Source: a virus
Strand: one strand, 5' to 3'
DNA: 34,698 nt
IMG/VR virus record: IMGVR_UViG_3300042905_000049
Span: 1-34,698 of that record
In this document: one piece after another, positions 7,011 to 34,698 of the stretch
Layout: the number at the start of each line of letters is the position of its first letter
Numbering within the stretch: the stretch's first letter is position 1
Translations under genes and position numbers: made by a program
The notes under the pieces: generated by a model
Databases searched by the model: none
The model's input: the letters and a program-made list of their open reading frames with translations, nothing else
What the model was told of the DNA's origin: nothing

Positions 7011-8087
7011 ATGTTCGGTATCTCCGCATTTGCCGAAGCGCCATTTGCCTCGCTTGCGGGGCAGACAGTAGTCGTTGCTCTTACCGGCGTCCAGGCATCT
7101 GGCGCGGTAGGAACAGTCACGAACGGCGGAGTCTCAGTCGCATTAACTGGAGTCCAAGCTACTGGCAATGTAGATACAGCAGCCCCAGTCATTACTGTTG
7201 AGATTTCTGGAGTTTTGGCTGCGGGTAGTGTAGGGTCAGTTTCTGTCTCTGTACCCATAGAGTTAACAGGCGTTTCAGCGACGGGCGAGGTAGGTACAGT
7301 TGTAGTTGAAAGCTCTTTAGCCCTTACGGGCGTATCCGCTACGGGTGAAGTTGGTACTGTCGTATATGCTGAAACTGATGCGCTGACAGGCGTAGCAGCC
7401 ACAGGAGCGGTTGGTTCTGTTACTGCTACTACGCTGTCTATAGAGTTGAATGGTGTCGCGGCTGTTGGCGCAGTTGGTACTGTAGATGTTACACAAACCG
7501 GCGCTGAGAATGGTGTATTAGGAATTGGTAGTGTAGGAACTGTTGGGACTGATATTTCAGTTGCACTGACTGGTGTTGAGGCTTCTGGCTCAGTTGGTAC
7601 AGTCATATTTTATGTTGTCATTGAACAGGCTTTGACAGGTGTCTCCGCAGAGGGGGCTGTTGGCTCAGTCGGAGGGGCTTCCGACAGGTCTGTGGCACTG
7701 TCTGGTGTTAGTGCTTCTGGAGGGCTTGGCACCGCCGGTGTTTTGCACGAGAATGCGCTTAATGCGGAAGGCGGCTGGGGTTCAGGTACATGGGGTGAGT
7801 ATGGTTGGGGTGAAGGCCCAGTTAATACAACGTTTATTAGTGGGCAAGTTGGTACAGTCATACCCGGCAAAGTAGCTGCCCTGACAGGTGTAGAAGCTAG
7901 AGGACTTCTTGGTACGTTTGGGGTTATTCACATCAATGGGCTATTGGGTGTGTTGGCGCAAGGATATGTTGGAAATGTTTCTAATTATTTCTGGACAACT
8001 ATTGATGACAATCAGATTCCGGACTGGCATAATATCAACGATTCCGATACCGCAAGTTGGGTATTGATTGAAACGGAAGATGCATGA
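7011..8087 (+). CDS. ALTGV-repeat virion protein
   Basis: This 358-residue protein is built from about 13 imperfect repeats of roughly 20 residues with the core ALTGVxAxGxVGTV (about residues 23-323). An aromatic, Gly-rich break (GGWGSGTWGEYGWGEG, near residue 255) interrupts them. An unrelated C-terminal block, WTTIDDNQIPDWHNINDSDT followed by a short acidic end, closes the protein. The repeats have the strand-turn rhythm of a beta-solenoid or stacked hairpins, as in phage fibre shafts. Two copies of the same repeat end the gene at 18491-18877. The role is probably a tail-associated fibre or spike, and the family has no named function known to me. A hairpin overlaps its ribosome site. Confidence 0.75.
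   Translation: MFGISAFAEAPFASLAGQTVVVALTGVQASGAVGTVTNGGVSVALTGVQATGNVDTAAPVITVEISGVLAAGSVGSVSVSVPIELTGVSATGEVGTVVVESSLALTGVSATGEVGTVVYAETDALTGVAATGAVGSVTATTLSIELNGVAAVGAVGTVDVTQTGAENGVLGIGSVGTVGTDISVALTGVEASGSVGTVIFYVVIEQALTGVSAEGAVGSVGGASDRSVALSGVSASGGLGTAGVLHENALNAEGGWGSGTWGEYGWGEGPVNTTFISGQVGTVIPGKVAALTGVEARGLLGTFGVIHINGLLGVLAQGYVGNVSNYFWTTIDDNQIPDWHNINDSDTASWVLIETEDA
7077..7979 (+). repeat. Tandem ALTGV coding repeats, about 13 copies of about 60 bp
   Basis: In-frame units encode ALTGVxAxGxVGTV with a variable linker of 4-9 residues. DNA copies have drifted, for example GGCGTTTCAGCGACGGGCGA near 7270 and GGCGTATCCGCTACGGGTGA near 7330, so the array is old but still selected at the protein level. 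One larger linker with Trp and Gly lies near 7770-7820. Confidence 0.85.
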
Positions 8088-9548: not shown

Positions 9549-10628
9549 ATGTCGATGCGCTATCAAGCTGGTATTGTTTTACCGGGGTACAACGCTCTGA
9601 AGGTTGCTAACGCCCCAACGATTGGAACTGCTACATCTGCGAGTGGTACATCGGTGTCTGTAACTTTTACAGCGCCAGCTTGTACTGGTGGTGGAGCCAT
9701 TTCTGGATATACAGTTTTTGCAAATTGTGGAATTTATACGGCATCTGGCGCATCGTCACCCTTGGTAGTGACTGGATTAACTACTGGCACTGCGTACACA
9801 TTTAAAGCTATTGCTACAAACGCTTTTGGGCCAAGCTATCCCAGCGCGGCTAGCAATTCCGCGACTCCTATAGCGCAAGGACAAGACGCATACACATCTC
9901 CGGGTACATACTCATGGGTAGCCCCCGCTGGCGTAACTTCTGTATCAGTTGTCGTGGTGGGTATTGGTTCTCCCGGTGGCGGTGGAAATAGCTGTAACGG
10001 TGGTAGGGGTGGTAACGGAGCAGGGTTAGGTTACAAAAATAATTACACCGTTACTCCCGGTAGTTCATACTCTCTACGAGTTGCTGGGTGTGATGGCGTA
10101 GACAGTTTTTTTGTTTCTACTGCGGTAGTTAAGGGCGGTTCTGGTGGCGCTGGTGGGACTTATACAGGTGATGGTGGTGGTAATGGTGGAACAACAGGAA
10201 CCGTAGGTAGTTCCTCACCAAGTGGTGGCGGTGGCGCTGGTGGTTATTCTGGAAATGGCGGAAATTCTGTTAACGGCGGTTCTGGTGTTGCTCCAACAGC
10301 CCCTTCGGGCGGCGGCGGTGGCGCAGGGCAGTCAGGTTTTGGCCCTAATAACTGGGGCGCTGGTGGCGGCGGTGGCGTTGGATTATTGGGGCAAGGAAGC
10401 TGTGGCGTTGGTTCAGCGGGAGTGTCTGGTAATGGTGGCACTGGCGGTTCGGGCGGCTGTAGTGGTTCTGCTAGGTCTGGAGCCGTTGGCGGCGCTGGTG
10501 GAGGATATGGCGGTGGTGGAGGAGGAGGCGCTCAAGGCGCTGGTGGTGCTAAAGGCCCTGCCGCCGTGCGTATTATCTGGCCCGGCACAACTCGTTCATT
10601 CCCATCAACGAATACAGGAAACTTGTAA
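9549..10628 (+). CDS. Fibre/adhesin paralogue 1: FN3 plus glycine-rich domain
   Basis: This 359-residue protein has an N-terminal MSMRYQAGIVLPGYNAL segment, one fibronectin type III-like domain (about residues 20-110; NAPTIGTATSASG, VVTGLTTGTAYTFKAIATNA), and then a Gly-rich domain from about residue 113. That domain opens with AYTSPGTYSWVAPAGVTSVS, a start typical of phage glycine-rich adhesin domains. Long Gly runs with regular spacing could pack as polyglycine-II helices, as in the gp38-type adhesins of T-even relatives (known family, inferred here). The conserved end is VRIIWPGTTRSFPSTNTGNL. It is the first of three tandem paralogues; its stop overlaps the next ATG. Probable role: receptor binding. 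Confidence 0.8.
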   Translation: MSMRYQAGIVLPGYNALKVANAPTIGTATSASGTSVSVTFTAPACTGGGAISGYTVFANCGIYTASGASSPLVVTGLTTGTAYTFKAIATNAFGPSYPSAASNSATPIAQGQDAYTSPGTYSWVAPAGVTSVSVVVVGIGSPGGGGNSCNGGRGGNGAGLGYKNNYTVTPGSSYSLRVAGCDGVDSFFVSTAVVKGGSGGAGGTYTGDGGGNGGTTGTVGSSSPSGGGGAGGYSGNGGNSVNGGSGVAPTAPSGGGGGAGQSGFGPNNWGAGGGGGVGLLGQGSCGVGSAGVSGNGGTGGSGGCSGSARSGAVGGAGGGYGGGGGGGAQGAGGAKGPAAVRIIWPGTTRSFPSTNTGNL

Positions 10629-11848
10629 TGCCTAATTTCTCAGGAATCTGGACAGTCACCCAGCAGATGCAAGCAAAGGGTGCAAGTACATGGCCCGCAG
10701 TGCCGGGTGCGCCTACGATTGGTACAGCCACGGCGGGATCGTCTTTGTGTGCTTCAGTAACATTTACTGCGCCTGCTTGTACAGGTTACCCTTCTGGGGG
10801 TATTACGGGGTATCGTGTTATCTCAACTCCGGGCTGTTTATCAAACACTGGCGCATCTTCTCCAATTGTTGTGTCCGGTTTGACTGATGGCGCTTCTTAC
10901 ACATTTAAAGCCCAAGCAACAAATGCGGCTGGATATGGCCCATTGAGTGCGGCAAGTAATTCAATTACTGCGTCTAGCGCGGGTTCTTCAGCATACCTTA
11001 CTGCGGGCACATTTACTTTTGTAGTACCGTCAGGTGTTACTTCTGTATCCGCTGTGGTAGTTGGCGGTGGCGGTGGTGGAGCAGGATTAAATCCCGGCAA
11101 TCCATGTTTACCTTTCTACGGCCCTCCAAAAAGATACGGTGGTGGTGGCGGAAGTTTACGTTGGCAAAATAATATATCAGTTACGCCCGGTGAGTCTTTA
11201 ACTGTAGTAGTCGGAGGCGGCGGTAGTGGTGGCGCTAATGCTAGTGGTAGCGCAGGGGGTCAAAGTTATTTTATTTGTACTACTGGTGCTAGATTTGTAC
11301 GCGCACCGGGCGGTGCTGGTGGAACCCGGGGGGGTTCCCCAACTGCAAGAACTGGGGCTGGCACATCGGCGGGCACTGGTTCTGGGGGCGGCGGCTTTGG
11401 TGGTGGTAGTAGAAAAGGTACAGGATGTTTTTCTTGTAATGGTAATAGTGGCGGCGGCGGCGCTGGTGGCTATCAACCGTGTTGCGGAACTGCTGGATGT
11501 GGACAAGGCGCATCATCATTCTCCGCTGGCGCAAATGGTGCTTTTGGCGGTGGCGGTGGCGGCGGTGGATTTGGTAATACCTGCTGTACTCCCGGCGGCG
11601 GCGTTGGTGTTTTACTTGGACAAGGTTGTAGCGGCGCTGGCGGTTCTAGCGGTTCTGTGGCAGGTAAAGGCGGTTCTGGCGGCTGTAACGGTACAGGAAT
11701 TACCGGTGGTTTGTATGGTGGTGGCGGTTCTGGTACTGTATATAACCCCGGTTTTCAAAATGGTGGCCCCGGCGCACGAGGCGCAGTCCGTATTGTGTGG
11801 CCCGGAACGGTGCGTTCATACCCATCTACTTGCGTAGGAAGTCCATAA
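10628..11848 (+). CDS. Fibre/adhesin paralogue 2: FN3 plus glycine-rich domain, Cys-rich
   Basis: This 406-residue protein begins in a TAATG overlap. The N-terminal SGIWTVTQQMQAKGASTWP resembles the short virion-anchoring starts of related fibres. An FN3-like domain follows (about residues 27-117; GAPTIGTATAGSSLCASVTF), then a Gly-rich domain from about residue 121 with AYLTAGTFTFVVPSGVTSVS. Unlike the third paralogue, its glycine domain carries many cysteines (for example GCFSCNGNSGGGG, CCGTAGCGQG, NTCCTPGG), suggesting metal binding or disulfide variants at the tip. It ends AVRIVWPGTVRSYPS. Probable receptor-binding protein, differently specialised from its neighbours. Confidence 0.78.
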   Translation: MPNFSGIWTVTQQMQAKGASTWPAVPGAPTIGTATAGSSLCASVTFTAPACTGYPSGGITGYRVISTPGCLSNTGASSPIVVSGLTDGASYTFKAQATNAAGYGPLSAASNSITASSAGSSAYLTAGTFTFVVPSGVTSVSAVVVGGGGGGAGLNPGNPCLPFYGPPKRYGGGGGSLRWQNNISVTPGESLTVVVGGGGSGGANASGSAGGQSYFICTTGARFVRAPGGAGGTRGGSPTARTGAGTSAGTGSGGGGFGGGSRKGTGCFSCNGNSGGGGAGGYQPCCGTAGCGQGASSFSAGANGAFGGGGGGGGFGNTCCTPGGGVGVLLGQGCSGAGGSSGSVAGKGGSGGCNGTGITGGLYGGGGSGTVYNPGFQNGGPGARGAVRIVWPGTVRSYPSTCVGSP

Positions 11849-13218
11849 TGAGTATCAGACAATACCCCGGCGGTGTTATCACCAAGAACCCAACAGCCCC
11901 AACTACAACGGTAGCCAAGGGTATCTGGACGCTTGACCAAGCACAGAATTACATCAAGCAAGGCACTTGGCCTCGTAGTCCCGGTGCGCCTACGATTGGT
12001 ACAGCTACGGTTTCTGTGCTGACTGCATCCGTTCCTTTTACTGCACCCACTGACACGGGTAGCGTGGCTATTACGAATTACATTGCAACATCAACTCCCG
12101 GCGGTGTTACAGGTACAAGTGCATCTTCACCTATCAGCGTGACAGGCTTGTCTGCAAATACTTCTTACACATTTCAAGTTCAAGCGATTAACGGCGCGGG
12201 CACAGGCGGTCAAAGCGCGGCATCAAATAGCATAACAACAGCTAACGTGCCGGGCGCACCAACAATTGGTACAGCCACGGCTACTGGGTCTTCTACTGCG
12301 ACAGTTGCATATACTGCGCCAGCAAGTGATGGCGGTTCTGCAATTACGTTGTATACAGCTACATCATCACCCGGCGGCATTACAGGAACACTTGCAACAG
12401 CAGGTTCCGGGACAATTACTGTTTCTGGTTTAAGCCCAGTAACGGCTTATACATTTACTGTAACAGCTACTAACGCTATTGGCGTAAGTGCGGCAAGCGC
12501 GGCAAGTAATAGCATTACGACATCAGCCGCCGCAGGACAAGAAGCCTTTACAACATCTGGCACATACACATGGGTTGCTCCTACTGGAGTCACATCTGTA
12601 TCTGTAGTCGCTGTTGGTGGTGGTAAAAATAAGAGTGGTTGTACTTCTGGTGGCGGCGGCGGTGGCTTAGGATGGAAAAACAATGTAACTGTATCTCCCG
12701 GTACTGGCTATACAGTAGTTGCAGGTGCGCAAATGCAGGATTCATATCTTGTAGTTGGCGGGTCATCAGTAGCAATAGGCTACGGCGCTACTTCTGGAAA
12801 TGGTGGAGGTTTTTTTGGAGATGGCGGCGGTAATGGCGGTCAGGGCAACCAAGGCGGCGGCGGCGCTGGTGGCTATTCTGGTAATGGCGGCGCTGGTGGA
12901 AGTGGTGGCAGTGGTAGTAGTGGCAGTGGCGGCGGCGGCGGTGGAGGGCGTAATTTTGACGGTGAAGGCGGCGGCGGTGGCGGCGGCGTAGGTATTTTAG
13001 GGCAAGGGGCTAGTGGTGCTGGTAGTAGCACTGCTGGCGGTGGTGGTGGTTCAGGAGGAGAGTGCGGCGCAAACCCAGCTAGTAATGGACGCGGTGGCGC
13101 TTATGGTGGCGGTGCTGGTGGCAATGTATCAAACAATACTGGCGGTCGCGGAGCAGTGCGTATTATTTGGCCCGGCACAACTCGTCAATTCCCATCAACG
13201 AATACTGGTAATGTTTAA
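11848..13218 (+). CDS. Fibre/adhesin paralogue 3: two FN3 domains plus glycine-rich domain
   Basis: This 456-residue protein starts at the ATG overlapping the previous TAA; an in-frame opening 51 bases earlier lies inside that gene and is rejected. The N-terminus MSIRQYPGGVITKNPTAP leads to the anchor-like AKGIWTLDQAQNYIKQGTWP, then two FN3-like domains (about residues 44-131 and 135-226). The Gly-rich domain runs from about residue 232 (AFTTSGTYTWVAPTGVTSVS) to the end VRIIWPGTTRQFPSTNTGNV. DNA near the 3' end is almost identical to paralogue 1, a sign of recombination between copies. The extra FN3 would make this fibre longer. Probable receptor-binding protein. Confidence 0.8.
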   Translation: MSIRQYPGGVITKNPTAPTTTVAKGIWTLDQAQNYIKQGTWPRSPGAPTIGTATVSVLTASVPFTAPTDTGSVAITNYIATSTPGGVTGTSASSPISVTGLSANTSYTFQVQAINGAGTGGQSAASNSITTANVPGAPTIGTATATGSSTATVAYTAPASDGGSAITLYTATSSPGGITGTLATAGSGTITVSGLSPVTAYTFTVTATNAIGVSAASAASNSITTSAAAGQEAFTTSGTYTWVAPTGVTSVSVVAVGGGKNKSGCTSGGGGGGLGWKNNVTVSPGTGYTVVAGAQMQDSYLVVGGSSVAIGYGATSGNGGGFFGDGGGNGGQGNQGGGGAGGYSGNGGAGGSGGSGSSGSGGGGGGGRNFDGEGGGGGGGVGILGQGASGAGSSTAGGGGGSGGECGANPASNGRGGAYGGGAGGNVSNNTGGRGAVRIIWPGTTRQFPSTNTGNV

Positions 13219-13742: not shown

Positions 13743-14462
13743 ATGGCAAAGACCGCCACTAAGAAGTCAAAACAAAAAGTATGCAAAGCCGCTGAGTCAG
13801 TGGCTCAAGTTGTCCTACAAACACAGCTTCAAGTTGCGTATCACTTCCCGTGCCCTATTTACATTATTGAGCGGCCTGACTTCTTGGAGGCAGTTAATAC
13901 TGTCTCTGAGGAATTTCTCGACGTTGCTAAAAAAGAACGTGACTTAAACGAAATTTATCCTGTCTACATGACGCAAAACTTCTTTGGCGACCCTCGCATG
14001 GCAGGGTTCTCTGAGTTTGTCGGCGCTACTGCTTGGAACATTCTTAATGAGCAGGGCTACGCCATGCAGGACAAAGCGGTGCAGTTCACAGAGATGTGGA
14101 CACAAGAGCACCACAAGCACTCGGCAATGGACGCACACGTTCACGGCTTTGGTTCACAGATCGTAGGCTTTTACTTCCTTGAGACACCAGAAGATTGTTC
14201 TCGCGTAGTCTTTCATGATCCCCGTGCAGCCAAGGTGCAGATTGACTTACCAGAACAAAACATAAGTGCCGCAACACCTGCCAGCAAGATGATTAACTTC
14301 ACACCCAAACCCGGTATGATGATTTTTGCTAACTCATGGTTGATGCACTCGTTTACACGCCATGCGGCAGAGTTGCCAATTAAGTTTGTGCACTTTAACT
14401 TAACCGTGATTCACCAGCCACAACAGGCTTGCAACATTCCTCCAGCGGCTGAAATTGTATGA
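13743..14462 (+). CDS. Putative 2OG-Fe(II) oxygenase (PF13759-like)
   Basis: This 239-residue protein has an AAGGAG ribosome site. After a Lys-rich N-terminal 20 residues comes a cupin-like double-stranded beta-helix pattern: HVHG (His132 and His134) before SQIVGFYFLETPEDCSRV, then VFHDPRAAKVQ, and PKPGMMIFANSWLMHSF with His202. These would give the iron-binding histidines. The FANSWLMHSF...HFNLT ending is that of the putative 2OG-Fe(II) oxygenase family. The usual Arg of the RISLSFN segment is a Lys in PIKFVHFN, so co-substrate binding may differ. The substrate is unknown; modification of a protein, nucleic acid or host product are options. The stop overlaps the next start as ATGA. Confidence 0.8.
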   Translation: MAKTATKKSKQKVCKAAESVAQVVLQTQLQVAYHFPCPIYIIERPDFLEAVNTVSEEFLDVAKKERDLNEIYPVYMTQNFFGDPRMAGFSEFVGATAWNILNEQGYAMQDKAVQFTEMWTQEHHKHSAMDAHVHGFGSQIVGFYFLETPEDCSRVVFHDPRAAKVQIDLPEQNISAATPASKMINFTPKPGMMIFANSWLMHSFTRHAAELPIKFVHFNLTVIHQPQQACNIPPAAEIV

Positions 14463-18490: not shown

Positions 18491-18877
18491 ATGGGCATGC
18501 TTCAGAACCAGAATGCGCCTAACGTACCCGCCGCCCCTGCGCAGTATGAGCAAGGGTTCATGAATCAGTACACCAACGTTCTGAGGCTGTTCTTTAACCA
18601 AATTAACGCGATCCAACAACTTAATTTGGCGCGGTTAAATCTAGACTTAGGCACTTTACCTACCGATGCAGATTACGTTAACTTGCGGTACGGGGATGTT
18701 TACAGAGATACCGAAGGCGGGACTTTGCATGATGGGACTAACGTACTGCGTATCAAAGTACCGGGCAGCATGACTGGCGTATCTGCTTCTGGTGCAGTTG
18801 GATCGGTCAGTGCTACAAAAACAATACCATTAACAGGCGTCTCTAGCACTGGCGCAGTTGGTACAGTTACTCCATAA
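18491..18877 (+). CDS. Small virion protein ending in two ALTGV-type repeats
   Basis: This 128-residue protein has a TAGGAG ribosome site inside the end of the nozzle gene. The N-terminal part (YEQGFMNQYTNVLRLFFNQI, then NAIQQLNLARLNLD) is a helical motif I know from conserved phage structural proteins. The last 40 residues are two copies of the repeat of the gene at 7011-8087: MTGVSASGAVGSV and LTGVSSTGAVGTV, ending at the C-terminus. A small core with a borrowed repeat tail suggests a virion component bearing a surface extension. Confidence 0.77.
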   Translation: MGMLQNQNAPNVPAAPAQYEQGFMNQYTNVLRLFFNQINAIQQLNLARLNLDLGTLPTDADYVNLRYGDVYRDTEGGTLHDGTNVLRIKVPGSMTGVSASGAVGSVSATKTIPLTGVSSTGAVGTVTP

Positions 18878-19258: not shown

Positions 19259-21004
19259 ATGCCAATGCTTGCTATATTTGCTGAAGAAGCTGCTCTTGCT
19301 TTAGCGTCTGAGCTTGCCCCCTATGCGGCTGGTGAAGCTGCCCTAGCTGCAAGTTCAGTCCTTGGTGCAGAAGCTCTTATGGGTCTTGGCGCTGAAGCAT
19401 TAGGCGCTGGTGCAATGGGTGGAGCAGAGGCTGCTCTTGGCGCAGAAGCTATGGCTGCTAACGCTGCGTCTGGTGGCGCTGGTGCTGGCGCTGCTAATAT
19501 TAACGCGGCTCAAGTTGCGGCTCAACAGAACGCAGCTACGCAAGCGGCTACACGAGGTCTTGCGTCTGTCCCTCAAGCTATTGCACCCGCATCCGCGCCA
19601 TACGCACCATTGGAGTTGACTAATAATCCATTAAACAGTCCGTTCCCAGAATATTTTGGTTCACAAACTGCTGCGTCTCCTTTTACTCCAAGCGCGCCTC
19701 CTATGGGTATGGAAGGTCAGTTTGCTGCAAACCAATTTATTGAACCGGGTTCCGCTGGTATACCCAGTATGGCAAACACTATTGCCCAAGCTAATATTCC
19801 TGTTACTCCTCCTTCAGCGCTTGAAGCAGGTATGGATAAAGCTGTAAAGTTTGCTAAAGCAAATCCTTTTACTGCAATGACAGGTGCGTACATGGGTGCA
19901 AACATGCTGGGTCTTATGAATCCTTCCGGCGCTACGTTCAACGACAAACCTTATGACGGCCCACTGTCTCGCTATCGTTTAGCGTCTGACTTCCAAGGCC
20001 GCACTGCTAACCCGCTTGATTTCCAATATAAAGGTTATGCGGCAGGTGGCGGCATCATGGGCGCGGGCTCTTACGATATTCCTGTGGGCTACGATGAAGG
20101 TGGCCCCGTTACTGAAGCACAAAAAGATGCAGCTAAAAGAGCATTTGAGTTAGCTAACCCCGGCGGTCTTGGCCCTTCTGTAAATGTTGGTGGGTACGGG
20201 ACTCTTAATTTCCAGAATGACGCTGCATATGATCAATTTAACCAAAACCCTCAAAGCATGACCTTTTCACAAGGTCCGGGCGGAGTGCGATATGTTGAGC
20301 CTAAAGCAGCGGACTACGATACTAGATTTCAAAATTTAAGTATGGGTATGGGCAGTGCTGGAGGTGGCGGCGGTGGTAAACCGGGTTTTGACGAACAAGG
20401 TAACGCTACTATGGCGTTTGCTAAAGGCGGAAGCCTCTCTGACTCTATTGAGCAATACCAAAAAATGTTAGGTGGTCAGCAACAGGCGGCTCCCGCAGCG
20501 TCTCGTGATGTTGGTATCTATTACGATCAAGACCCTGATACCCGCTATCAGGATGCGTTGACTGCTGCGCAGATTCGTCAAGCCAAAGTCAACCAACGTG
20601 CTTATGTTTCTCCCCCTGCTGCTAAGCGCCCCACACCGTTAGGCAAATTAAACATGCCTACAAGCGCTAAGAGTAAGGGTGGCGGTGACGTTGAAGCAGC
20701 AAGTGGTGGCATCATGCATTCAAGTCTTGGTGGTTACGCTGCTGGTGGAAACCCACGACTGCTCAAAGGCCCCGGAGACGGAATGTCAGACAACATTCCT
20801 GCAACTATTAACGGACGTCAACCTGCTCGACTTGCAGATGGCGAGTTTGTAATCCCAGCAGATGTGGTGTCACATCTAGGCAACGGCTCTACGGAAGCTG
20901 GTGCTAAACATCTTCATGCCATGATGAACAAGGTACGCAAGGCGCGTACTGGTAACCCTAAACAGGGCAAGCAGATCAACGCTAAAAAATACATGCCTAA
21001 ATAA
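19259..21004 (+). CDS. Conserved phage protein with Ala/Gly-rich N-terminus and GPGDGMSD C-terminus
   Basis: This is a 581-residue protein. Residues 1-90 are Ala-rich and helical, with AEEAALALASELAPYAAGEA and repeated EAALGAEAMAANAASGGAG. The middle has Gly-rich motifs KGYAAGGGIMGAG and AFAKGGSLSDS. The C-terminal 80 residues, including LKGPGDGMSDNIPATING, RQPARLADGEFVIPADVVSH and LGNGSTEAGAKHLHAMMNKV, form a block that I know from many uncultured phage proteins. It is near the ejection genes, so an internal virion protein is plausible, but the function is not established. Three YA[AK]GG-type motifs fall in it. Confidence 0.78.
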   Translation: MPMLAIFAEEAALALASELAPYAAGEAALAASSVLGAEALMGLGAEALGAGAMGGAEAALGAEAMAANAASGGAGAGAANINAAQVAAQQNAATQAATRGLASVPQAIAPASAPYAPLELTNNPLNSPFPEYFGSQTAASPFTPSAPPMGMEGQFAANQFIEPGSAGIPSMANTIAQANIPVTPPSALEAGMDKAVKFAKANPFTAMTGAYMGANMLGLMNPSGATFNDKPYDGPLSRYRLASDFQGRTANPLDFQYKGYAAGGGIMGAGSYDIPVGYDEGGPVTEAQKDAAKRAFELANPGGLGPSVNVGGYGTLNFQNDAAYDQFNQNPQSMTFSQGPGGVRYVEPKAADYDTRFQNLSMGMGSAGGGGGGKPGFDEQGNATMAFAKGGSLSDSIEQYQKMLGGQQQAAPAASRDVGIYYDQDPDTRYQDALTAAQIRQAKVNQRAYVSPPAAKRPTPLGKLNMPTSAKSKGGGDVEAASGGIMHSSLGGYAAGGNPRLLKGPGDGMSDNIPATINGRQPARLADGEFVIPADVVSHLGNGSTEAGAKHLHAMMNKVRKARTGNPKQGKQINAKKYMPK

Positions 21005-21006
21005 AC

Positions 21007-21414
21007 ATGCCCTTTTATCAAATTAACCCGACTCAATTACCAGAAGTATGGCCCGTTGCTGCTCCCCTTTTGCAAAAAGCAATTGATCTTGACCCTAGTG
21101 AAATAACTATTGAACAAGTTGAGTACGCGGTTCGCACAGGACGTACTTATCTGGTAGTGTGGGAAGAACCGGGAGAAGGTATAACAGGCGCAGCGGCGGT
21201 AGACTTTATTGACTATCCGCGAGAAAGAATTGGGCACGGTAATTTGATGGGCGGTAAAGGAATTATGCGCCCACATGTTATTGCAGAGATGTATAAATGG
21301 ATGAAACTCCATGGAGCCACAAAAGCGCAGGTATGGGCTAGAGGTTCTTTGGTTAATATGTATGAGAAGTTTGGGTTAGAAGTTACCCACCAAGTAATGA
21401 GGATTAAATTATGA
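21007..21414 (+). CDS. GNAT-like protein, T7 gp13-type (DUF2833-like)
   Basis: This 135-residue protein, near the 138 residues of T7 gp13, has the layout of a small GNAT fold: a strand with YLVVWEEPGEGITGAAAVDF, RIGHGNLMGGKGIMRPHVIA, then MYKWMKLHGATKAQVWARGS and YEKFGLEVTHQVMRIKL. The usual acetyl-CoA loop (Q/RxxGxG/A) is not obvious, so activity is doubtful. It sits between the tail module and the two large proteins, as gp13 does between T7 genes 12 and 14. In T7, gp13 is needed for infectivity, and a similar part is inferred here. The stop overlaps the next start. Confidence 0.75.
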   Translation: MPFYQINPTQLPEVWPVAAPLLQKAIDLDPSEITIEQVEYAVRTGRTYLVVWEEPGEGITGAAAVDFIDYPRERIGHGNLMGGKGIMRPHVIAEMYKWMKLHGATKAQVWARGSLVNMYEKFGLEVTHQVMRIKL

Positions 21415-25026: not shown

Positions 25027-28000
25027 ATGGCTAATTTTTTCGACCAGTTTGACGCTGAACAAGAAAAAGAAAAAGAACAGAAGCCATCTCAAAACTTCTT
25101 TGACCAGTTTGACGAGCCGGTTAAAAAAGTAGCTACCCCAAAAGCTACAGGCCCTAAGGGTAAAGACACCACGCAATTGCCAGACGATGATGAAACTGGC
25201 GATTTCATGCGCGGGATCTACAATTACTTGCCTCAACTTCAAGAAACCTACGGCGGTGCAAAAGTATTTACGGGTATGGGCCTGAAGAAACTTGGCGCTA
25301 CAGAAACTGGGCAGAGTTTAATTGAGAGCGGCAAAGAGTCGATGGACATTGGCGAGTCCAAGCAAATGACTCGTGAATCTGATTCGCTGACAAGAGCATG
25401 GGAAAAAGGCATCGGTACAGTTGTTACTGATTGGCTTCCCTACAACATTGGTTCAGGCGTTGCTAGCGTTGCCGAAACTCTTGCTGTTATGGGTATTGGC
25501 GCTGGTGTAGGTGCGGTAGCGGGCGCAGGCGCAGGCGCTATACCTGGTGCAGTGGGCGCTGCGGTATCTAAAACACTAGTTAAAAAAGGTATTGTAGAAG
25601 CTGCTGAAAATATTATTGAAACCGAAGCTAAAAAAGCTTTGGCTGCGGGCGCTACTAAACAAGCCGCTAAAGTTGCCGGTGAAACCGCTGGCGCTAAATT
25701 TATTGAATCCCAAAGTAAAAATGTTTTAATTGCAGCAAGTGAAATGGCGGCTAAAGCTTATGGGAAAGCGGGCGCTAAATCGTATGGCGCAACTGCTGCT
25801 ATGGCGGGGCAAGCTGGTTTGTATGGTACAGGCGAGACTACAAGCCGCGCGGTAAATGAAGCCGAAAAAGCGGGCATGGATATAGACGATATTGAGTACG
25901 GACGGCTTGCTACCGCCGCTGCTGTTCACAGCGTAGCTGATTTCTTTATAAATAAAATTGGCGTAGACGCATTAAAGATTGGCGAAAAAGCTACACAGTC
26001 TTTAATTTTGGATATCAGCAAACGTATCGCTGTAACTGGTCTCAAACAAATCCCCGCTGAAGAAATTCAAACTATGGCTGAGCGCTATGGCGCAAAACTG
26101 TCATTAACCGATGCAGAAGCTTTACGTGAATATGTTGATACTGCTGGCGCTGCGTTTGCTATGTCAGTTGGCCCCGGAACAGTTGGCGGCGCTAAAACTC
26201 ACTATGTAAATAAACTTCAGAAAGCTGGCACTGAAGCTGAAGCCGCTGGTAAAACATATAGAGGCGACCTCACAGTTAATAAAGACGTCATACCGCCCAC
26301 GATTAAAGGCTTTGACAAAGAGAGCGCTGATCTATTGATGCCTGCTACAGATGCGGCAGGCAATCCTATTGTTGCCGACGTTGCGGCTCCTGAAGTAACT
26401 GAGACTACACCAGCGCCTAAGAAGACTAGAGCGCCAAAAATTACTGCTGAAGGCGTAACGCCCGAATCAATCCAAGCTGCTAATGACTACGTTGGGAAAA
26501 TTGACGGCGGTGAGACTATTAAGCAATCTGAATACAGGCAGATTGCGAGGGCGGTTGGTCTCAGCATTCCAGTAGGAACAAAAAATAGTGAAGCTGTTGA
26601 ACTTATTAGAAACCACCTTGCACAACAAGGAGCACCTGATGCTACAGGAATTAACACACAAGCAGGTGGAGCAGGCGCTGGAGTGGCTGCACTCGCCAAC
26701 CAAAGCCAGACCGCCGCAGGAACTGCTGGATCTCAACCCGGTGGAGTGGTATCTACTGGAACAAATGCTGGGGCAAATTTGGCTGGAGCAAAGCAGCAGC
26801 CCATTACATTAATAAGTCCCGTAACACAGCGCATCATTGCAGATGAGCATAATGAAGGCGCAACCCCTGCCGAATTAATTACTAAATACGGTAACTCTCC
26901 CGAAGTAGCAGCTGCTATCGACCAATACATTAAAACTTTACCACCAGCAGGAGAAACCCTTGGCACTGAGACCACTGAAACCGAGCAAACAAAAGCGGAA
27001 GGAAAACAACCGCCCTCAACCCTTTCAGCCAAGCGACCAACAACAGTAAAAGGTTGGCTACAACACTTCTTGAAGACAGGTGAGACCGATCCTAAACTTG
27101 CTGCTATTCAGCAAGACTCTCATCCTGCTTTTGTAGCTGACCCAGATGTTACACCAGAGCAAAATGCAAAAGATGCTATGGAGCTTGGTCAGCGTTACGA
27201 GGCAGAGGCTGAAGCGGAGCGCGTTCGTTTACTTAACGAATCCACAGGTAATGGAGCTCTAAAAAAAGAAGACATCTATGCCAGATATGACGCTGAACAA
27301 GAACGGAAGCAAACTGAAGCTGAAGCAGCGTTTGGATTAGAGCCTACAAAAGCTGGTTCTATATCAAAAGAAAACCGTGACAACTATGATAAGGCAAGGG
27401 AAGAATTCCCCGAACTGCCAGAGTGGTCTGATCTAAGTGCAGTTGATAAAGACGTCTACTTTGAAAACGTTCGTTACGGCAACATGCCTGAGCACCGCAA
27501 AGCTGCGCAAGCATTAATTAATTATCGTAAAGAAACAGGTGGACGCAGTAAAGGCTATGGGCAGGGCGCTACAACTGTTGGTGAACAACGTACTATTAAA
27601 AATTATGAAGATAACCGAAACACTGCATCTAAGATGTTTAATGTTTCGTTTCCACGTTGGGGCGATCTATCACGCGTAGCTCAACAAGCCTACCTTGATC
27701 AAATTGTAAATAACGCTGGTTTGCAACAAGACGTTGCTTTTGCAAAAGCCGGTGAAGCGTTGCTCAAAGAAAACCGTGAGCTGTCTGATGATCAGAAGAA
27801 GGCTGAACTTGCTAACATCAACAAGCGCCAAGAAGAAGTTCGTAAAGAAGCTGAGCAAAACAAAGAAGAGTTAGAGAAGTTGCGTAGAACATATGGCGAT
27901 GTAGCATCTACATCTCTTGGTCGTGGTACGCTGCAGCTATCAAAGAGTGTCATTGAGCATCTGCAAAAAGGGCGTCTTGGCTTAGCGCTGCAAGATGTAA

Positions 28001-31000
28001 GCGACACACTTAAAAAGAACAGCGACTCCCGCAACAAAATGTTTGGCTACGTTGCCAATCTACTTGGTAACCTTGGATTAAAAACTAAGATTGAATTTAC
28101 TGATAGATTACCTGACGGCGATTTGGGTATCTACGATCCCTACACTGACACTATTACACTTTCGCTTTCTGGCTTGACTGTGCCTACATTACTGCACGAG
28201 GTGGCCCACGCTGCTACTGTTCGCGTAATGTACATGTACATGAATGGCCAGAAGAACCAACTGACCGAGCGCCAGATTAAGGGCGTTGAACAGATTCTAA
28301 CGATCATGCGCCAAACTCAGTTTGAGTTGCAAGGCGATTACCCCGAGGCGTTTACAAGCCCATTTGAATTCATAGCCTATGCTATGACTGATAAATTCTT
28401 TCAAGCAGATTTGGCTGAGCAAGGGATTGACTACGCTGAGTTCAGTGCGTTGGATATTGCTGCCAAATTAAAGCTGGGCACTGAAGACATTTTTACCATC
28501 TTACCAACAGAGAAGTCTCAGTGGTCTGCGTTTAAGAAAGCTATGGCAGGTATCTTTAAAGTGCCTGCTGGTGCGTTAAAGTCTCCCAACTTTATGGTGG
28601 AGTTGTCTGGGGCATTTGAAGACATCTTGTCTGTGCCAACTGAACCAATCAATCTAGAAACACTGTCGGCTAAGAAACCAAAAGGGCAACAGCCTACAGT
28701 ACCTAAGACAGCTGAGTCTCGAGAAACTGGGCTGTATGAAAAAGATAAAAATTATGAACCAAGCAATAAAGAAAAGTATGGCGTAGATACCGCCGGAGAC
28801 CTATCAAGATTGGGTAAGATTAAGCGCGCTTTTAGTCGTCACGGTTGGAGAGACTTTGTTACTAAGGCGCAGAGTCGTCGTCAGCATATTCGTGCGTATG
28901 AAAATGAATTAAATATGGCGGGGCTTCTTAATCGTGATCCTACGGGCGCGTTTAACAATGTCAGCGAAAAACAAGACTTAGCTTTAAACCAAGGCGTTAG
29001 ATTTGCTATTGACTATCTGCAGCAGCCCCTGCAAAAACTGCATGATACTTTTAATAATTGGTTGCTGACGTCTAACCAGAATACCGAAAAAGGTCTTGAT
29101 CAGTTTCATAGGTTAGCGGAAATGTTCGGCGCAACTGAACGCCGCTTTGCTAAATGGATTACATCCGTACCTTTGAGCAAAACTCAAAACCTAACGCATA
29201 ACGGCAAACCGATTAGCGCCGCTGAGCGTCGTATTCAGCTTATGGGTGATCCCCGCACTGGGGTGGACGGACTGATCCATAAAGTTGCATTGAATGATCA
29301 GCAAAAAGCTGCTATTCGTAAAGAGCTAGAGTATCTTGCTACCAACCATGCCGATGCGCTAGGCGATAGCCCCCGCATCAGTGAAAAGATGCGTCAGCGC
29401 TTTGCTAAAAATCCAAAGCATAAGGGCATAGATACGGACAAAAACGCTCCAATCTATAACGCTCTTGGTATTGAAGAGGCCACAGTCAATAAACGTATGA
29501 CTGAGTTCCTAGCAAAGAGCAAGGAAGAGCAAGCGTTGATTAAAGAAATGTTTGATCAAGTAAAGATCATTACAGATGCCACTGCCGAACTCAACAAGAT
29601 TGGCAACTACTGGTCAATGCCTGTATCCAATATTGTTGGCATCTATAACTATCAATACTACATGCCGTTTAAGGGTCTGTCTAAGCACACCAAAGTGGAT
29701 GACATGATTGACCCCAACAGCAAGATGAATGGCGCTGAAATGCAGGATGAAATTCATGCTGCTGAAGGCCGTTTCTCTACGTCGGATAATCCGTTGCTGC
29801 AAATGATCTATGACGGTTATAGAGCGGCTAGTCGTGCTGGGCGTAAAGACTTTACGCAATCTGTTGAAAATGCAGTTGAACCAACTACAAGCAAAGATGC
29901 GTATAACCCAACGGGTACAGGAGTTATACCTGGCAGGGTAGTTAAAACAGTCCCGTTTTGGGAGCGTGAAACTGTAGATTTATCTAAATACAAAGGCGCT
30001 AATAGCAAGTACATCTTTAACTACAAAGCTGATGGTTCTATGAACATCATTGCTATTGACAACCCTAAATTGCTGCAAGCTATTCGTTACCCATTTAGAG
30101 AAAAAACTCCGTTATGGGACGCGGCTAACCGTATTACGGGCTTCTTTGGCTCGATGCACACACGTTTTAACTACAACTTTGCGCCAAAAGACTTTGTAGT
30201 GAACACGTTAACCAACGCATGGAACGCCGCTACAAGCGAAAAGATTGGCCCACTAGGCGCTGCTGCATATCTAAAAGATGTGGCTATGGCGGTTACTAAA
30301 AATGGTTTGGGCAAGGCCATGAATATTGCTGTGCTGGAAGAAATTGGAAGCGCTGGCAGTAAAAAAGTCATGAGCGACATGGCGGCAAAAGACCCGTTCA
30401 TTCGTGACATGCTTGAGATGATTCGATATGGCGGCAAGAGCACCTACATGGAAAGCTTCTCTCTAAAGTCAAACCTTGAGACTCTTAGTGAAAATTCTTT
30501 TGGCAAAAACAACATCATCACTGACCCTATCAGCGCAACTAAACTGCTAGATAGCTGGAACAACATGTTTGAGTTTACTAGCCGCACGGCTATGTATTCT
30601 TTGTACAAAGAACGGGCACTTAAACAAAACATTGCTGACGGTATGTCAGACAAGAAAGGTCCAAACGGAGAATTGTCCCCAGCTGAACGTGCTGCAGCTG
30701 AAGAAGCAGCTGCATTTACGCTGAACCTTGCGAACTTCTCGCAGCAAGGTGAGTGGGGCAAAGTCATGGGTGCTTTCTATATGTTTAGTAAGCCATCAGC
30801 CACTGGCGCTGTACGAGCACTTGAATCAGTCTTGCCTGCCTTTACTTCGGTAAAACGCGCAATGCAAGATCTGCCCCCTGTGATTGCAAACAACCCTACC
30901 GCAAAAGCAAAATACGAAGAAACTTTTAGAATACGAAAGCGTAACGCGTCTTTCATGACAGGGTCGTTGATTGCTATGGGCGGTGGACTTTTTGCACTGT

Positions 31001-32001
31001 CTATGATGGGCGCACCAGATGATGAATGGGAACGTAACGCTGCATTAACGGATAACATGGAGCAGTGGTCTCGTTATGCTCGTTTCCATATCCCAAATGA
31101 AGTATCTGAAAGACTTGGTCTTGGTAAAGACGTCGTATTCCAAATACCTTGGGGATTTGGCCCGGGTGCGTTTGCTGCAAGTGGTGCGCAGTTTGCTGCT
31201 ATGTTGGCTGGAACAATTACTCCTATTGAGGCAGCAAGCAATATTGCATTTACGATCATGACTGATGCGTTCTTGCCATTACCAATGTCTAAAATTCCTT
31301 TTGTAGACAATAAAGTTATGTGGGTCTTGGACTCAGTTGCCCCTACCGTAATTCGTCCATTCATTGAATGGGTTGCAAACATAAACGGTGTTGGGCAGGC
31401 AATTAACAGCGCTTCTCAACGTCGTATGGGTGACGCCTATACAGGCGGTGACCGCATTCCAGAAATCTACAAAGATGTAGCTGATGGTTTATACGAATCA
31501 ACTCATGGCGCTTTTGATATATCTCCAAACACAATGTACTTCTTCACAAACAGTTACCTTGATGGTGTAGCTAAGATTGCAGAGTTGATGTATTCGTGGA
31601 CTAATCTTGGTAAAGGTGAAAAAGAATTTAATCCTAAGACAGACCTGCCATTGTTTGGTTCGTTCTTTGGCGCTAAGACCAACGTTGATTCTCGTGAGTA
31701 CGGCAAGATAGAGCAAAAAATTAAAGAGATAGATAAACGTTTAGTTACTCTAGATAAACGAAACCCTGCTCTTTATGCGGAGTTTGTAGCTGAAAATCCT
31801 TTGTATCCAAGCATTGTTGAACAGTACCAATCAGCGCAAGGTGAGCTTAATGAAATGCGTCAACGGGCTACCGAGATTCGGAACAATAAATACTTGGCTA
31901 TAAAAGATCGAGATGCGTTGTTAAAGCTGGTTATCCTTGAACAAAATATGCTCAAGTACCGCCTTGTACAAGACTTTAAAGCTATGGGGCTAGAGCGCTA
32001 A
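25027..32001 (+). CDS. Giant polyvalent virion protein with HExxH metallopeptidase motif
   Basis: This is a 2324-residue protein. Visible parts: NFFDQFD twice (residues 3-9 and 23-29); a hydrophobic Ala/Gly segment (about 139-182); Ala-rich helices to about 390; linker sequence; the zincin motif HEVAH at 1057-1061 with Glu1114 in SPFEFIAYAM as a possible third ligand; a block around 1640-1735 with TVDLSKYKGANSKYIF and HTRFNYNFAPKDFVVNTLTN that resembles large polyvalent-protein domains such as LPD38; SQQGEWGKVMGAFYMFSKPS near 1905; a hydrophobic span near 1975-1995; and a charged C-terminus. Such giants are ejected with DNA in short-tailed phages, in the T7 gp16 position. The peptidase may cut host proteins, peptidoglycan crosslinks or virion proteins. 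It overlaps the convergent minus gene by four bases. Confidence 0.82.
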   Translation: MANFFDQFDAEQEKEKEQKPSQNFFDQFDEPVKKVATPKATGPKGKDTTQLPDDDETGDFMRGIYNYLPQLQETYGGAKVFTGMGLKKLGATETGQSLIESGKESMDIGESKQMTRESDSLTRAWEKGIGTVVTDWLPYNIGSGVASVAETLAVMGIGAGVGAVAGAGAGAIPGAVGAAVSKTLVKKGIVEAAENIIETEAKKALAAGATKQAAKVAGETAGAKFIESQSKNVLIAASEMAAKAYGKAGAKSYGATAAMAGQAGLYGTGETTSRAVNEAEKAGMDIDDIEYGRLATAAAVHSVADFFINKIGVDALKIGEKATQSLILDISKRIAVTGLKQIPAEEIQTMAERYGAKLSLTDAEALREYVDTAGAAFAMSVGPGTVGGAKTHYVNKLQKAGTEAEAAGKTYRGDLTVNKDVIPPTIKGFDKESADLLMPATDAAGNPIVADVAAPEVTETTPAPKKTRAPKITAEGVTPESIQAANDYVGKIDGGETIKQSEYRQIARAVGLSIPVGTKNSEAVELIRNHLAQQGAPDATGINTQAGGAGAGVAALANQSQTAAGTAGSQPGGVVSTGTNAGANLAGAKQQPITLISPVTQRIIADEHNEGATPAELITKYGNSPEVAAAIDQYIKTLPPAGETLGTETTETEQTKAEGKQPPSTLSAKRPTTVKGWLQHFLKTGETDPKLAAIQQDSHPAFVADPDVTPEQNAKDAMELGQRYEAEAEAERVRLLNESTGNGALKKEDIYARYDAEQERKQTEAEAAFGLEPTKAGSISKENRDNYDKAREEFPELPEWSDLSAVDKDVYFENVRYGNMPEHRKAAQALINYRKETGGRSKGYGQGATTVGEQRTIKNYEDNRNTASKMFNVSFPRWGDLSRVAQQAYLDQIVNNAGLQQDVAFAKAGEALLKENRELSDDQKKAELANINKRQEEVRKEAEQNKEELEKLRRTYGDVASTSLGRGTLQLSKSVIEHLQKGRLGLALQDVSDTLKKNSDSRNKMFGYVANLLGNLGLKTKIEFTDRLPDGDLGIYDPYTDTITLSLSGLTVPTLLHEVAHAATVRVMYMYMNGQKNQLTERQIKGVEQILTIMRQTQFELQGDYPEAFTSPFEFIAYAMTDKFFQADLAEQGIDYAEFSALDIAAKLKLGTEDIFTILPTEKSQWSAFKKAMAGIFKVPAGALKSPNFMVELSGAFEDILSVPTEPINLETLSAKKPKGQQPTVPKTAESRETGLYEKDKNYEPSNKEKYGVDTAGDLSRLGKIKRAFSRHGWRDFVTKAQSRRQHIRAYENELNMAGLLNRDPTGAFNNVSEKQDLALNQGVRFAIDYLQQPLQKLHDTFNNWLLTSNQNTEKGLDQFHRLAEMFGATERRFAKWITSVPLSKTQNLTHNGKPISAAERRIQLMGDPRTGVDGLIHKVALNDQQKAAIRKELEYLATNHADALGDSPRISEKMRQRFAKNPKHKGIDTDKNAPIYNALGIEEATVNKRMTEFLAKSKEEQALIKEMFDQVKIITDATAELNKIGNYWSMPVSNIVGIYNYQYYMPFKGLSKHTKVDDMIDPNSKMNGAEMQDEIHAAEGRFSTSDNPLLQMIYDGYRAASRAGRKDFTQSVENAVEPTTSKDAYNPTGTGVIPGRVVKTVPFWERETVDLSKYKGANSKYIFNYKADGSMNIIAIDNPKLLQAIRYPFREKTPLWDAANRITGFFGSMHTRFNYNFAPKDFVVNTLTNAWNAATSEKIGPLGAAAYLKDVAMAVTKNGLGKAMNIAVLEEIGSAGSKKVMSDMAAKDPFIRDMLEMIRYGGKSTYMESFSLKSNLETLSENSFGKNNIITDPISATKLLDSWNNMFEFTSRTAMYSLYKERALKQNIADGMSDKKGPNGELSPAERAAAEEAAAFTLNLANFSQQGEWGKVMGAFYMFSKPSATGAVRALESVLPAFTSVKRAMQDLPPVIANNPTAKAKYEETFRIRKRNASFMTGSLIAMGGGLFALSMMGAPDDEWERNAALTDNMEQWSRYARFHIPNEVSERLGLGKDVVFQIPWGFGPGAFAASGAQFAAMLAGTITPIEAASNIAFTIMTDAFLPLPMSKIPFVDNKVMWVLDSVAPTVIRPFIEWVANINGVGQAINSASQRRMGDAYTGGDRIPEIYKDVADGLYESTHGAFDISPNTMYFFTNSYLDGVAKIAELMYSWTNLGKGEKEFNPKTDLPLFGSFFGAKTNVDSREYGKIEQKIKEIDKRLVTLDKRNPALYAEFVAENPLYPSIVEQYQSAQGELNEMRQRATEIRNNKYLAIKDRDALLKLVILEQNMLKYRLVQDFKAMGLER

Positions 32002-32204
32002 CGAAGACGCCAAGCGCGGACTCCAAGGTGGTTGTCCTTGTGCGTAACATAGCACTTGACTCTTACGTTGGCGCGCTTGGCTCCACTTTCTAGGGCGTAG
32101 ATTATCTCGGCAGGGCGCAAGGTGGGGATGAAGAAACTCTCCCCCACCTCCATTGCATCAAATGGAAATATCCACTCTGGTTCTTTGATATCACTTGGAC
32201 TCAT
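31998..32204 (-). CDS. Small conserved phage protein with PFDAMEVGESFFIP motif
   Basis: This 68-residue protein starts at ATG 32204. A longer in-frame opening to 32306 is rejected because it runs backwards through the helicase gene. SDIKEPEWIFPFDAMEVGES, then FFIPTLRPAEIIYALESGAK and a C-terminal GVRAWRLR, is a family I know from phage replication regions. Its MEVGESFF core often follows a helicase or primase. The function is unknown; a small nucleic-acid-binding or regulatory factor is possible. It overlaps the primase gene by 14 bases, so it is translationally coupled. The stop overlaps the giant gene's stop by four bases. Confidence 0.72.
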   Translation of the reverse strand: MSPSDIKEPEWIFPFDAMEVGESFFIPTLRPAEIIYALESGAKRANVRVKCYVTHKDNHLGVRAWRLR

Positions 32205-34698
32205 CAAACCACTCGCCAGGAATCTCAGTCTTAAACCAATAGAGATATGCAGGATCGACAGCAATCGCTGACTTCCACCCGGTAGTGAGGCGTCCCTTCT
32301 TGTCATCTATAAGAATCTTCTTCTCACGCATGTCAAACTCAAACTCACGTAGACTGACTTGGCGCTCTGACAAGAATTTCTTGAACTCAGTCTTAGACAC
32401 TTGCAAGAGACCTTCTTCACTGACGATGCGCCCTACAAGCTGGCCCCGTGGCTCCATGGTGACCTTGCCATCTTTAAGCACAAGTATGTTGCCCATGTTC
32501 TTGTTGATGAAGTCGCCAAGCAGAGATGGGTAGTCTGTGCGGTTAACCTTCACAACATTGTCTCTGATCTCAATCATCTTTAACACCGTGTGATGGTAGA
32601 TGCGTTCAAGGTCGTAGGCTGTGACGTTGTGTTCGTTGGCAATAGTGCCGCCACCAAATGTTGCGCCAACCAAGTTTTGGTAGAAGCGGTACTCAGCGTA
32701 AATGCCAAAGTCTTTCTCAAACCTCTCGTCCCATTTGGCGATATGGTCTAGCACATAGTTGTCACCGCCGCGCAGAACTTCTTTGATGTACATTGGACCT
32801 GCGTGTCCGTAGTTGAAGCGGAACGCATCAAAGATGTATTTACCAAGCCTGCCTTCTTTGTTGAGCAGTTCGGGTCTATGGATCAAGAACTCAATTACAC
32901 GAGCTGCTTCACCATCAGGGCTAGCCTTCAGAGAGTCAAGCTTACCGTAGACAGAGTGGTTGTTAGTTAGCATAGCAATCAGCGATGCAGACATCTCGTA
33001 CTCACGCTCAGCGTTGACTGAACCTTGCATACGAACCTTGGCCTTGCCGTTTGATATGTCGTGGATCAACTTGCCTAACTCTTTAGGATCTTTATCGCCA
33101 ACCTCATCAAGCCCAAACAAAATACTGTGCAAGCCAAGGTAACGACCAGTCAAGCCGTTGTCGGTAGCCCTCACAATGCTCAAGTCTTTAGGATGCCCAA
33201 AGATGCTCAAACCCGCATACATAGCGCCCGTCTTGGCATTGCCAGAGCGCCCAGTAAGGCTCACAGTCACGCCTGAAGTTGACGTATATGGCATCAATGG
33301 AGAACCAAATCCGCACATAGAAGCAAAGGCATGCAGTTCAAACTCCGGCTTGTTTAAATAGTCCATCGACTCACGCCAACGTGCAAACGTACCAGCTTGC
33401 GTAAGATGCCTAGACAGTCCGCGAACCCATGGAGATGATGGTGCATCAAGAACTTCACCTGACAGTGTGTATTCTTTCTTGCCAATAACAAAACTACGAT
33501 TGTCCCAGTTAGAGTTATCAGATGTACGATCTTCTGTCCATCCCATCTGCATGCGCATCTGTAGCGCCTTGTCAGTTGTCTGGAGGTACTGCCCCCATTT
33601 GATGATGTAGTTCATAAGGTGTTGGTCGTTTACTGATGCAAACAATACGCCATTGCTGGTCGTGATCGCTTTGAACGCTTCCTTGGCGTAGACGCTTTTC
33701 ATAGGAAGCAAGAAGTCACGATATCCGTCGTGTGGTAACTCATAGCGCATCTGCAAGCACTCGCCATCATGTGGGCTGATCATGCGTGTCAGTGGATAGA
33801 GATCGCTAGAGAGAATCAGGATTGGATCGTCTTGGTGCTTAGCGCCCTTCTTGTCGACCTTGGGTGGCGGCACAAAGTAAATGCCTCCGTTTACTCCTCG
33901 GACGTAGGGGTACAGGTAGTCTGGGAAATCAGGAACTTTTTGGGTATTCGGGACTTCCCAAACTGCGTCCTCTTTATTTGTCGCGGCGGCTGGCTTGAAC
34001 TGTTTACCCAACACAATTGGACTTGTGATCCTTCCTCTGTGCTGACATCCCTCGCAACGGCTTGGGTAGTTATCGATGAACCACTCACAGGTTCTCGGAG
34101 CAGGAAAGCGGCTGGCCTTATCTTCTGTATCTTCATAGGTGTACTTTGGGTGTTCGTTGGAAAACTCATGGATAGCGGTTGCGCCATCATCACAAAACTT
34201 AGCGATGGATAAACCTGCAAACCACAACGGCTCTTCTAAGGTCTTTGCGTTGTCGCACATGAATTTAATCTGTGCGCAACCACCTTCATCATCAACACTC
34301 TTTTGTGCCAGTACCTCAAATGATTTTGCAAAGTTGTCTAGCTTAAGAATTGCTTTAGTGTCTTCATCGATACCCTTGGGAATGCTTGCAAGAATATCTT
34401 CCGCTTCAATCTCTTCTTGTGTCTGTTGAACTACGGGCGCTGCTGGTGCAACGCCAAGGAAGTCTTTGAACTCGTTCCAGCTATAGACGTGAATCTCATC
34501 ACTGACAACTGACGTTGGCTCTGGTGGATCAAACTTGTGATTGAACGTCTCAGGTGCGCGCATGATACGTGCGGCATCTGCAGTAACCACTGGGTCAATA
34601 GATATATGCTGAAGGCATAGCGCTTTGAATTTCTCAGCGGCTAGCTTCCATTCATCTTTGGGGATGTCCTCATCCATGATCCAGTAAGCGTGAACCCC
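32191..34698 (-). CDS. Primase-polymerase plus DUF927-like helicase (5' end off window)
   Basis: The frame is open to the right edge, so the N-terminus lies outside. The visible start, GVHAYWIMDEDIPKDEWKLA, and VVTADAARIMRAPETFNHKF are the end of an archaeo-eukaryotic-type phage primase domain. A Cys cluster CEWFIDNYPSRCEGCQH (about 34041-34090) may bind zinc. The C-terminal half carries a Walker A-like GRSGNAKTG (about 33226-33255) and a Walker B ILFGLDEVGD (about 33097-33126), in a DUF927-type P-loop helicase domain. Ala replaces the usual Gly before the Walker Lys. The enzyme would prime and unwind phage DNA. It reads opposite to the virion genes, as early and late genes often do. Confidence 0.83.
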   Translation of the reverse strand, partial: GVHAYWIMDEDIPKDEWKLAAEKFKALCLQHISIDPVVTADAARIMRAPETFNHKFDPPEPTSVVSDEIHVYSWNEFKDFLGVAPAAPVVQQTQEEIEAEDILASIPKGIDEDTKAILKLDNFAKSFEVLAQKSVDDEGGCAQIKFMCDNAKTLEEPLWFAGLSIAKFCDDGATAIHEFSNEHPKYTYEDTEDKASRFPAPRTCEWFIDNYPSRCEGCQHRGRITSPIVLGKQFKPAAATNKEDAVWEVPNTQKVPDFPDYLYPYVRGVNGGIYFVPPPKVDKKGAKHQDDPILILSSDLYPLTRMISPHDGECLQMRYELPHDGYRDFLLPMKSVYAKEAFKAITTSNGVLFASVNDQHLMNYIIKWGQYLQTTDKALQMRMQMGWTEDRTSDNSNWDNRSFVIGKKEYTLSGEVLDAPSSPWVRGLSRHLTQAGTFARWRESMDYLNKPEFELHAFASMCGFGSPLMPYTSTSGVTVSLTGRSGNAKTGAMYAGLSIFGHPKDLSIVRATDNGLTGRYLGLHSILFGLDEVGDKDPKELGKLIHDISNGKAKVRMQGSVNAEREYEMSASLIAMLTNNHSVYGKLDSLKASPDGEAARVIEFLIHRPELLNKEGRLGKYIFDAFRFNYGHAGPMYIKEVLRGGDNYVLDHIAKWDERFEKDFGIYAEYRFYQNLVGATFGGGTIANEHNVTAYDLERIYHHTVLKMIEIRDNVVKVNRTDYPSLLGDFINKNMGNILVLKDGKVTMEPRGQLVGRIVSEEGLLQVSKTEFKKFLSERQVSLREFEFDMREKKILIDDKKGRLTTGWKSAIAVDPAYLYWFKTEIPGEWFDESK

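Follow-up and report, generated by a model that had tools for sequence, protein, structure and literature searches.

The stretch of DNA analysed here (the window, 34,698 nucleotides in length) encodes a protein of 2324 residues that is probably a phage-type polyvalent protein, ejected with the DNA of a bacterial virus, and a domain near the middle of its chain has the predicted fold and the conserved residues of a zincin-like metallopeptidase (MPTase). Taken jointly, the identity of a packed polyvalent ejection protein with a zincin peptidase, its delivery and its catalytic competence appear likely. The earlier sequence-only reading of this DNA had proposed a metallopeptidase motif within an ejection-type protein, and this stands in so far as a zincin-type domain lies in a giant and probably ejected protein. 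It does not stand as an oddity, since the MPTase is by report more common than any other domain in phage and plasmid polyvalent proteins and occurs also in the virion RNA polymerase (vRNAP) of phage N4 (PMC5512222, PMC12633501). Indeed earlier publications already cover this domain, the way it is delivered and the hypotheses about what it does. The features concerned are collected in Table 1.

Table 1. Features of the 2324-residue protein and its gene, in positions of the window
Feature	Position	Strand	Basis
ORF, phage-type polyvalent, probable ejection protein	25027..32001	+	ATG start, 2324 aa, LPD38 match
Interchangeable N-terminal cassette, about 40 residues, NFFDQFD twice (residues 3-9, 23-29)	25027..25146	+	swapped in L002
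Zincin-like metallopeptidase (MPTase) domain, residues about 969-1133	27931..28425	+	AlphaFold2 and profile matches
YDPYTDTITLS, predicted strands 2 and 3, last strand preceding the HExxH helix	28132..28164	+	starts at residue 1036
HEVAH (H1057, E1058, H1061), two predicted zinc ligands plus the predicted general base	28195..28209	+	residues 1057-1061, invariant
E1114, predicted third zinc ligand, on later helix	28366..28368	+	FEFIAYAM is residues 1113-1120
LPD38 domain (PF18857), residues 2009-2204	31051..31638	+	E 6.2e-17, 62.7 bits, cut-off 27

The protein and its gene

The gene follows those for capsid or head, adaptor, endolysin, holin and virion structural proteins, and so its place fits that of an ejection protein; this position, together with homology to ejected proteins, is what points to a location of the protein in the virion. 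Homologues are of comparable length. LPD38, which Pfam assigns to polyvalent proteins of the phage type, sits at the C-terminus and is present in all 14 full-length close relatives, and within a wider set of 22 ten carry LPD38 and eight LPD39. The chain unites a large polyvalent protein associated domain (LPD38), a feature of phage-type polyvalent proteins, with an MPTase.

Searches with Pfam and PHROGs recognised the MPTase and LPD38 as the only domains and no further enzyme domain, with no polymerase, lysozyme or wall-degrading domain and no lytic transglycosylase domain of the T7 gp16 type. An identity as a virion RNA polymerase was considered and rejected, because the same searches across the whole chain gave no single-subunit RNA polymerase domain. 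Whole-protein tblastn against a phage collection returned no match at 1e-3, and a genome scan yielded two loci only, one in a HyVt-435 bacterium MAG and the other in a Nitrosomonas MAG.

Several other features of the window were recorded. Three consecutive ORFs at 9549-13218, each by eye with a fibronectin-like start, a glycine-rich body and an end of RIIWPGT/RIVWPGT type, look like tandem paralogous tail adhesins. An ORF at 7011-8087 is made up of many LTGVxAxGxVGTV repeats, a motif also found by eye at the end of the ORF at 18491-18877, and a 2OG-Fe(II) oxygenase (PF13759, phrog_81) is encoded at 13743-14462 amid the structural genes. Comparison by eye of 19259-21004 with positions 2758-4290 of the homologous locus L003 shows that HSSLGGYAAGGNPRLLKGPGDGMSDNIPATINGRQPARLADGEFV.PADVVSHLGNGST.AGA, a stretch close to the C-terminus, is nearly the same in both and that much of the remainder differs. 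The 135-residue ORF at 21007 had no significant match to T7 gp13 or LUZ19 gp35. Downstream, an open-ended convergent ORF on the minus strand (32191-34698) matches DUF927 and a DNA primase/helicase family.

Motif and conservation

Translation of the ORF places HEVAH directly after the YDPYTDTITLS stretch, and Glu1114 within FEFIAYAM, just as the sequence-only reading had them. HEVAH is the sole HExxH of the 2324 residues, the chance expectation from amino-acid composition being 0.017. Homologues were gathered by two scans that draw on different parts of the domain. The first used only the patterns EFI[AS]YAM and TDKFFQ[AN], from the Glu1114/TDKFFQ region, and gave 27 loci, and so conservation of HExxH is its unbiased part; the second used only LHE[LV][TV]HAA and gave 81 aligned domains, conservation of the Glu being the unbiased part there. 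With the Glu-region patterns H1057, E1058, H1061 and E1114 are kept in 27/27 alignment rows (the window and 26 others), and no homologue lacking HExxH was found, in agreement with the four-residue conservation that had been expected. In the HExxH-driven scan the E1114 column is Glu in 78/78 domains that reach it, three local alignments ending earlier; the residue is predicted to be the third ligand. In both scans many loci are near-duplicates or close kin, and these counts are of sequences and not of independent events. When 22 full-length proteins of diverse kinds are aligned, nine of the 13 invariant columns fall inside the domain against about 0.9 expected, although the LHExxHAA columns had been selected for by the scan.

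Predicted fold

An AlphaFold2 model of residues 969-1239, built with 19 sequences, has block pLDDT values of 82-95 across its first 150 residues and of about 90 or more at the last strand, the HExxH helix and the Glu helix. In model numbering a helix (33-46) is followed by strands (53-57, 66-69 and 74-78), the HExxH helix (84-104), a further helix (113-133) and the Glu helix (144-153), and a second, trimmed model has an identical element order. The predicted order is that of a zincin and matches the MPTase core set out in Iyer et al. (PMC5512222), in agreement with the zincin assignment made from the letters; an HEXXH helix past the beta sheet, a Glu on a later helix, a three-stranded sheet and an N-terminal helix are all predicted.

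Foldseek searches of the PDB with the two models gave no match at E up to 1e-3. Metallopeptidases are frequent in the top rows of the weak matches (IrrE/PprI, lethal factor, jannalysin/selecase, Wss1, ADAM33 and snake-venom enzymes), which lends weak support to the zincin reading of the model. A viral structure library returned 12 matches at E up to 1e-3, of which the named ones are large phage proteins, among them the phi14:2 structural protein, the 'Internal protein D' of Bordetella phage BB8, an LPD protein, a crAss-like protein and one containing a lytic transglycosylase.

Homology to known phage domains

No Pfam model passes for the MPTase domain (DUF6782 and SprT-like appear weakly and for a few members only), and a profile-profile comparison matches it to the MPTase domain of N4-like vRNAPs and a crAss-like phage, in that hhalign of the window domain alignment against one of the N4, Axy22, PG11 and cr55_1 domains gives a probability of 99.2 and an E value of 3.3e-19. 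The domain HMM matches cr55_1 (1e-20), PG11 (3e-17), LUZ19 gp37 (3e-16), N4 (2e-8) and Axy22 (8e-8), and has no match among reversed control sequences. The same domain is found in phages of Pseudomonas, Vibrio and Escherichia and in gut crAss-like phages. Weak vRNAP matches obtained with a domain-only query of the phage collection were later settled by these profiles, and all 19 of 19 domain members match PHROG 2206 (virion RNA polymerase), over profile positions 2082-2199 only. The top PDB match by sequence is chain 9sfn_G, an 'Internal virion protein' of 1337 residues (E 1e-12), and N4 vRNAP is matched at 5e-4. The vRNAP of Vibrio phage PG11 (L005) was seen to have two HExxH domains, at residues 2187 and 2424, the second of which matches the profile weakly.

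That HEVAH arose by chance within some unrelated fold is barely credible. T7 gp16 shows that a chance HExxH does occur in such proteins, in that its single HERLH at residue 559 is unrelated, the protein having no match to the domain profile, and looks like a chance motif. For the window protein, conservation in two scans, the predicted fold and profile homology all speak to the contrary, and conservation with profile homology rules chance out.

Interchangeable N-terminal cassettes

The N-terminal NFFDQFD pair is shared by the window and one further locus (L001). In another (L002, positions 7109-7258) the protein is near-identical to that of the window from about residue 41, but begins instead with two GYSDADI-type repeats. 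The N-termini of 68 distinct homologues fall into many unrelated types, frequently made of short tandem motifs, and those in L003-L111 include FDPDAWLA twice, NPFAQFA three times, DPFEAQ three times, NPDTGERFALINNEWVPF twice, and others. A GYSDAEI cassette also heads unrelated large phage proteins (L124-L144), most of them without the peptidase by profile; one of these (L132) also carries LPD23 and matches the peptidase weakly, while in another (L138) the cassette is placed after a glucosaminidase domain. From these sequences it is possible that the N-terminal cassette acts as a packaging or docking tag, and if so the cassettes would show how phages select proteins for injection. A broader scheme, in which the MPTase acts early as a protease, setting separate functional pieces of the ejected protein free (or eliminating a factor of the host) as the DNA enters, while N-terminal cassettes, as packaging or docking tags, steer diverse cargo into the capsid, seems rather unlikely as a whole.

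Possible roles of the peptidase

In the proposed mechanism the 2324-residue protein would be carried inside the phage head and enter the cell along with the DNA. Residues about 969-1133, a homologue of the N4 vRNAP C1 domain, would form a zincin-fold metallopeptidase in which H1057, H1061 and E1114 are predicted to hold a zinc ion and E1058 to activate water. Most likely acting after delivery, the peptidase may cut flexible linkers of its own chain, so freeing the C-terminal LPD38 part, or may cut a host protein. That a protease is delivered with the DNA, as the sequence-only reading supposed, gains support from homology to domains of ejected proteins and is an idea already in print. The options listed by Iyer et al. 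(PMC5512222) are self-processing either ahead of packaging (as in P1 DdrB) or once the protein has been injected, and cleavage of proteins of the host, and no report of a substrate for the phage versions was found in the literature searched.

The N4 protein constrains the choice between these. It is packaged unprocessed (PMC5512222), and a 2025 structural study had no evidence of its degradation (PMC12633501), and so action of the peptidase is placed after entry, constitutive self-cleavage is not general in the class, and the chain could cut itself only to a limited extent or on some trigger. With that proviso self-cutting is tentatively put forward as the main job of the peptidase, slightly ahead of a host target, although it counts against it that the protein has no other recognised enzyme domain needing release.

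A role as an effector, with the peptidase remaining in the ejected protein and cutting a host protein (one of defence, of the envelope or of transcription) at an early stage of infection, is possible but held with still less confidence. Full-length N4 vRNAP without evidence of degradation (PMC12633501) would sit well with it, as would the catalytic residues being invariant in both homologue sets; zincin domains are effectors in other conflict systems, and the option is one of those named by Iyer et al. (PMC5512222). However neither a target nor a module for recognising one is known, and phages of very different hosts share the domain, so that a common internal task explains its spread no less well than targets particular to each host.

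Cleavage of a precursor during head assembly, by which the domain would be a prepackaging maturation protease, is unlikely. P1 DdrB is processed before packaging according to Iyer et al. (PMC5512222), but N4 vRNAP is packaged whole even though its MPTase region is required for encapsidation (PMC5512222).

Quite improbable is a loss of peptidase activity that leaves a structural or docking module with the zinc site retained. Where catalysis is lost the general base residue is normally free to drift, and a purely structural zinc site would have no need of an invariant general base Glu. In all homologues this Glu (E1058 in the window protein) is invariant beside the ligands, which favours catalysis. 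What might suggest loss is that the C-terminal domain of the N4 protein lowers transcription and packs against the polymerase, in a study whose text is without mention of peptidase activity (PMC12633501).

Comparison with named systems

Among the 12 MPTase clades of Iyer et al. 2017 (PMC5512222), with which the window domain shares the helices, strands and later-helix Glu set out above, one phage clade has an Asp three residues past HEXXH, where the window protein has Thr. In being a large phage protein with an LPD domain the window protein resembles the polyvalent MPTase proteins (PMC5512222), and differs from them in that no additional enzyme is recognised.

The C1 domain of N4 gp50 (residues 2124-2375; PMC12633501) is homologous, with HELVHAST at 2228 (H2228, E2229 and H2232; deposited structures 9pnr/11gp) and the Glu of NEFMAWGL, and there too the domain lies mid-chain in a giant ejected protein. 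In contrast to N4 gp50 the window protein is without a recognisable RNA polymerase domain, and its C-terminal part carries LPD38.

The gp37 protein of Pseudomonas phage LUZ19 (1337 residues) has HEAVHAAT at 423 and KELVAWGLTD, is encoded by the third and final gene in an unbroken row for internal virion proteins, and is named in RefSeq as an 'internal virion protein with endolysin domain'. It is about 1000 residues shorter than the window protein and has no Pfam match, LPD38 included. The 105 residues printed for 9sfn_G are identical to LUZ19 gp37 and both chains are of 1337 residues, so 9sfn is apparently the solved structure of this protein.

In crAss-like cr55_1 gp071 (about 2007 residues, motif at 517) the domain is homologous by profile and the rest of the protein differs, and likewise the structural protein of Cellulophaga phage phi14:2 is a structural match to the domain in an otherwise different protein. 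With T7 gp16 the window protein shares, by analogy, a genomic position in the row of ejection proteins. The contrast drawn by the sequence-only reading, in which T7 gp16 has a transglycosylase where the window protein has a peptidase, holds for T7 itself but not for the class, as LUZ19 gp37 at that place has a peptidase domain. Homology in this way ties the window protein to N4 gp50 and LUZ19 gp37, proteins of laboratory phages with deposited structures, and so the zinc site and removal of the catalytic Glu are directly testable in those phages.
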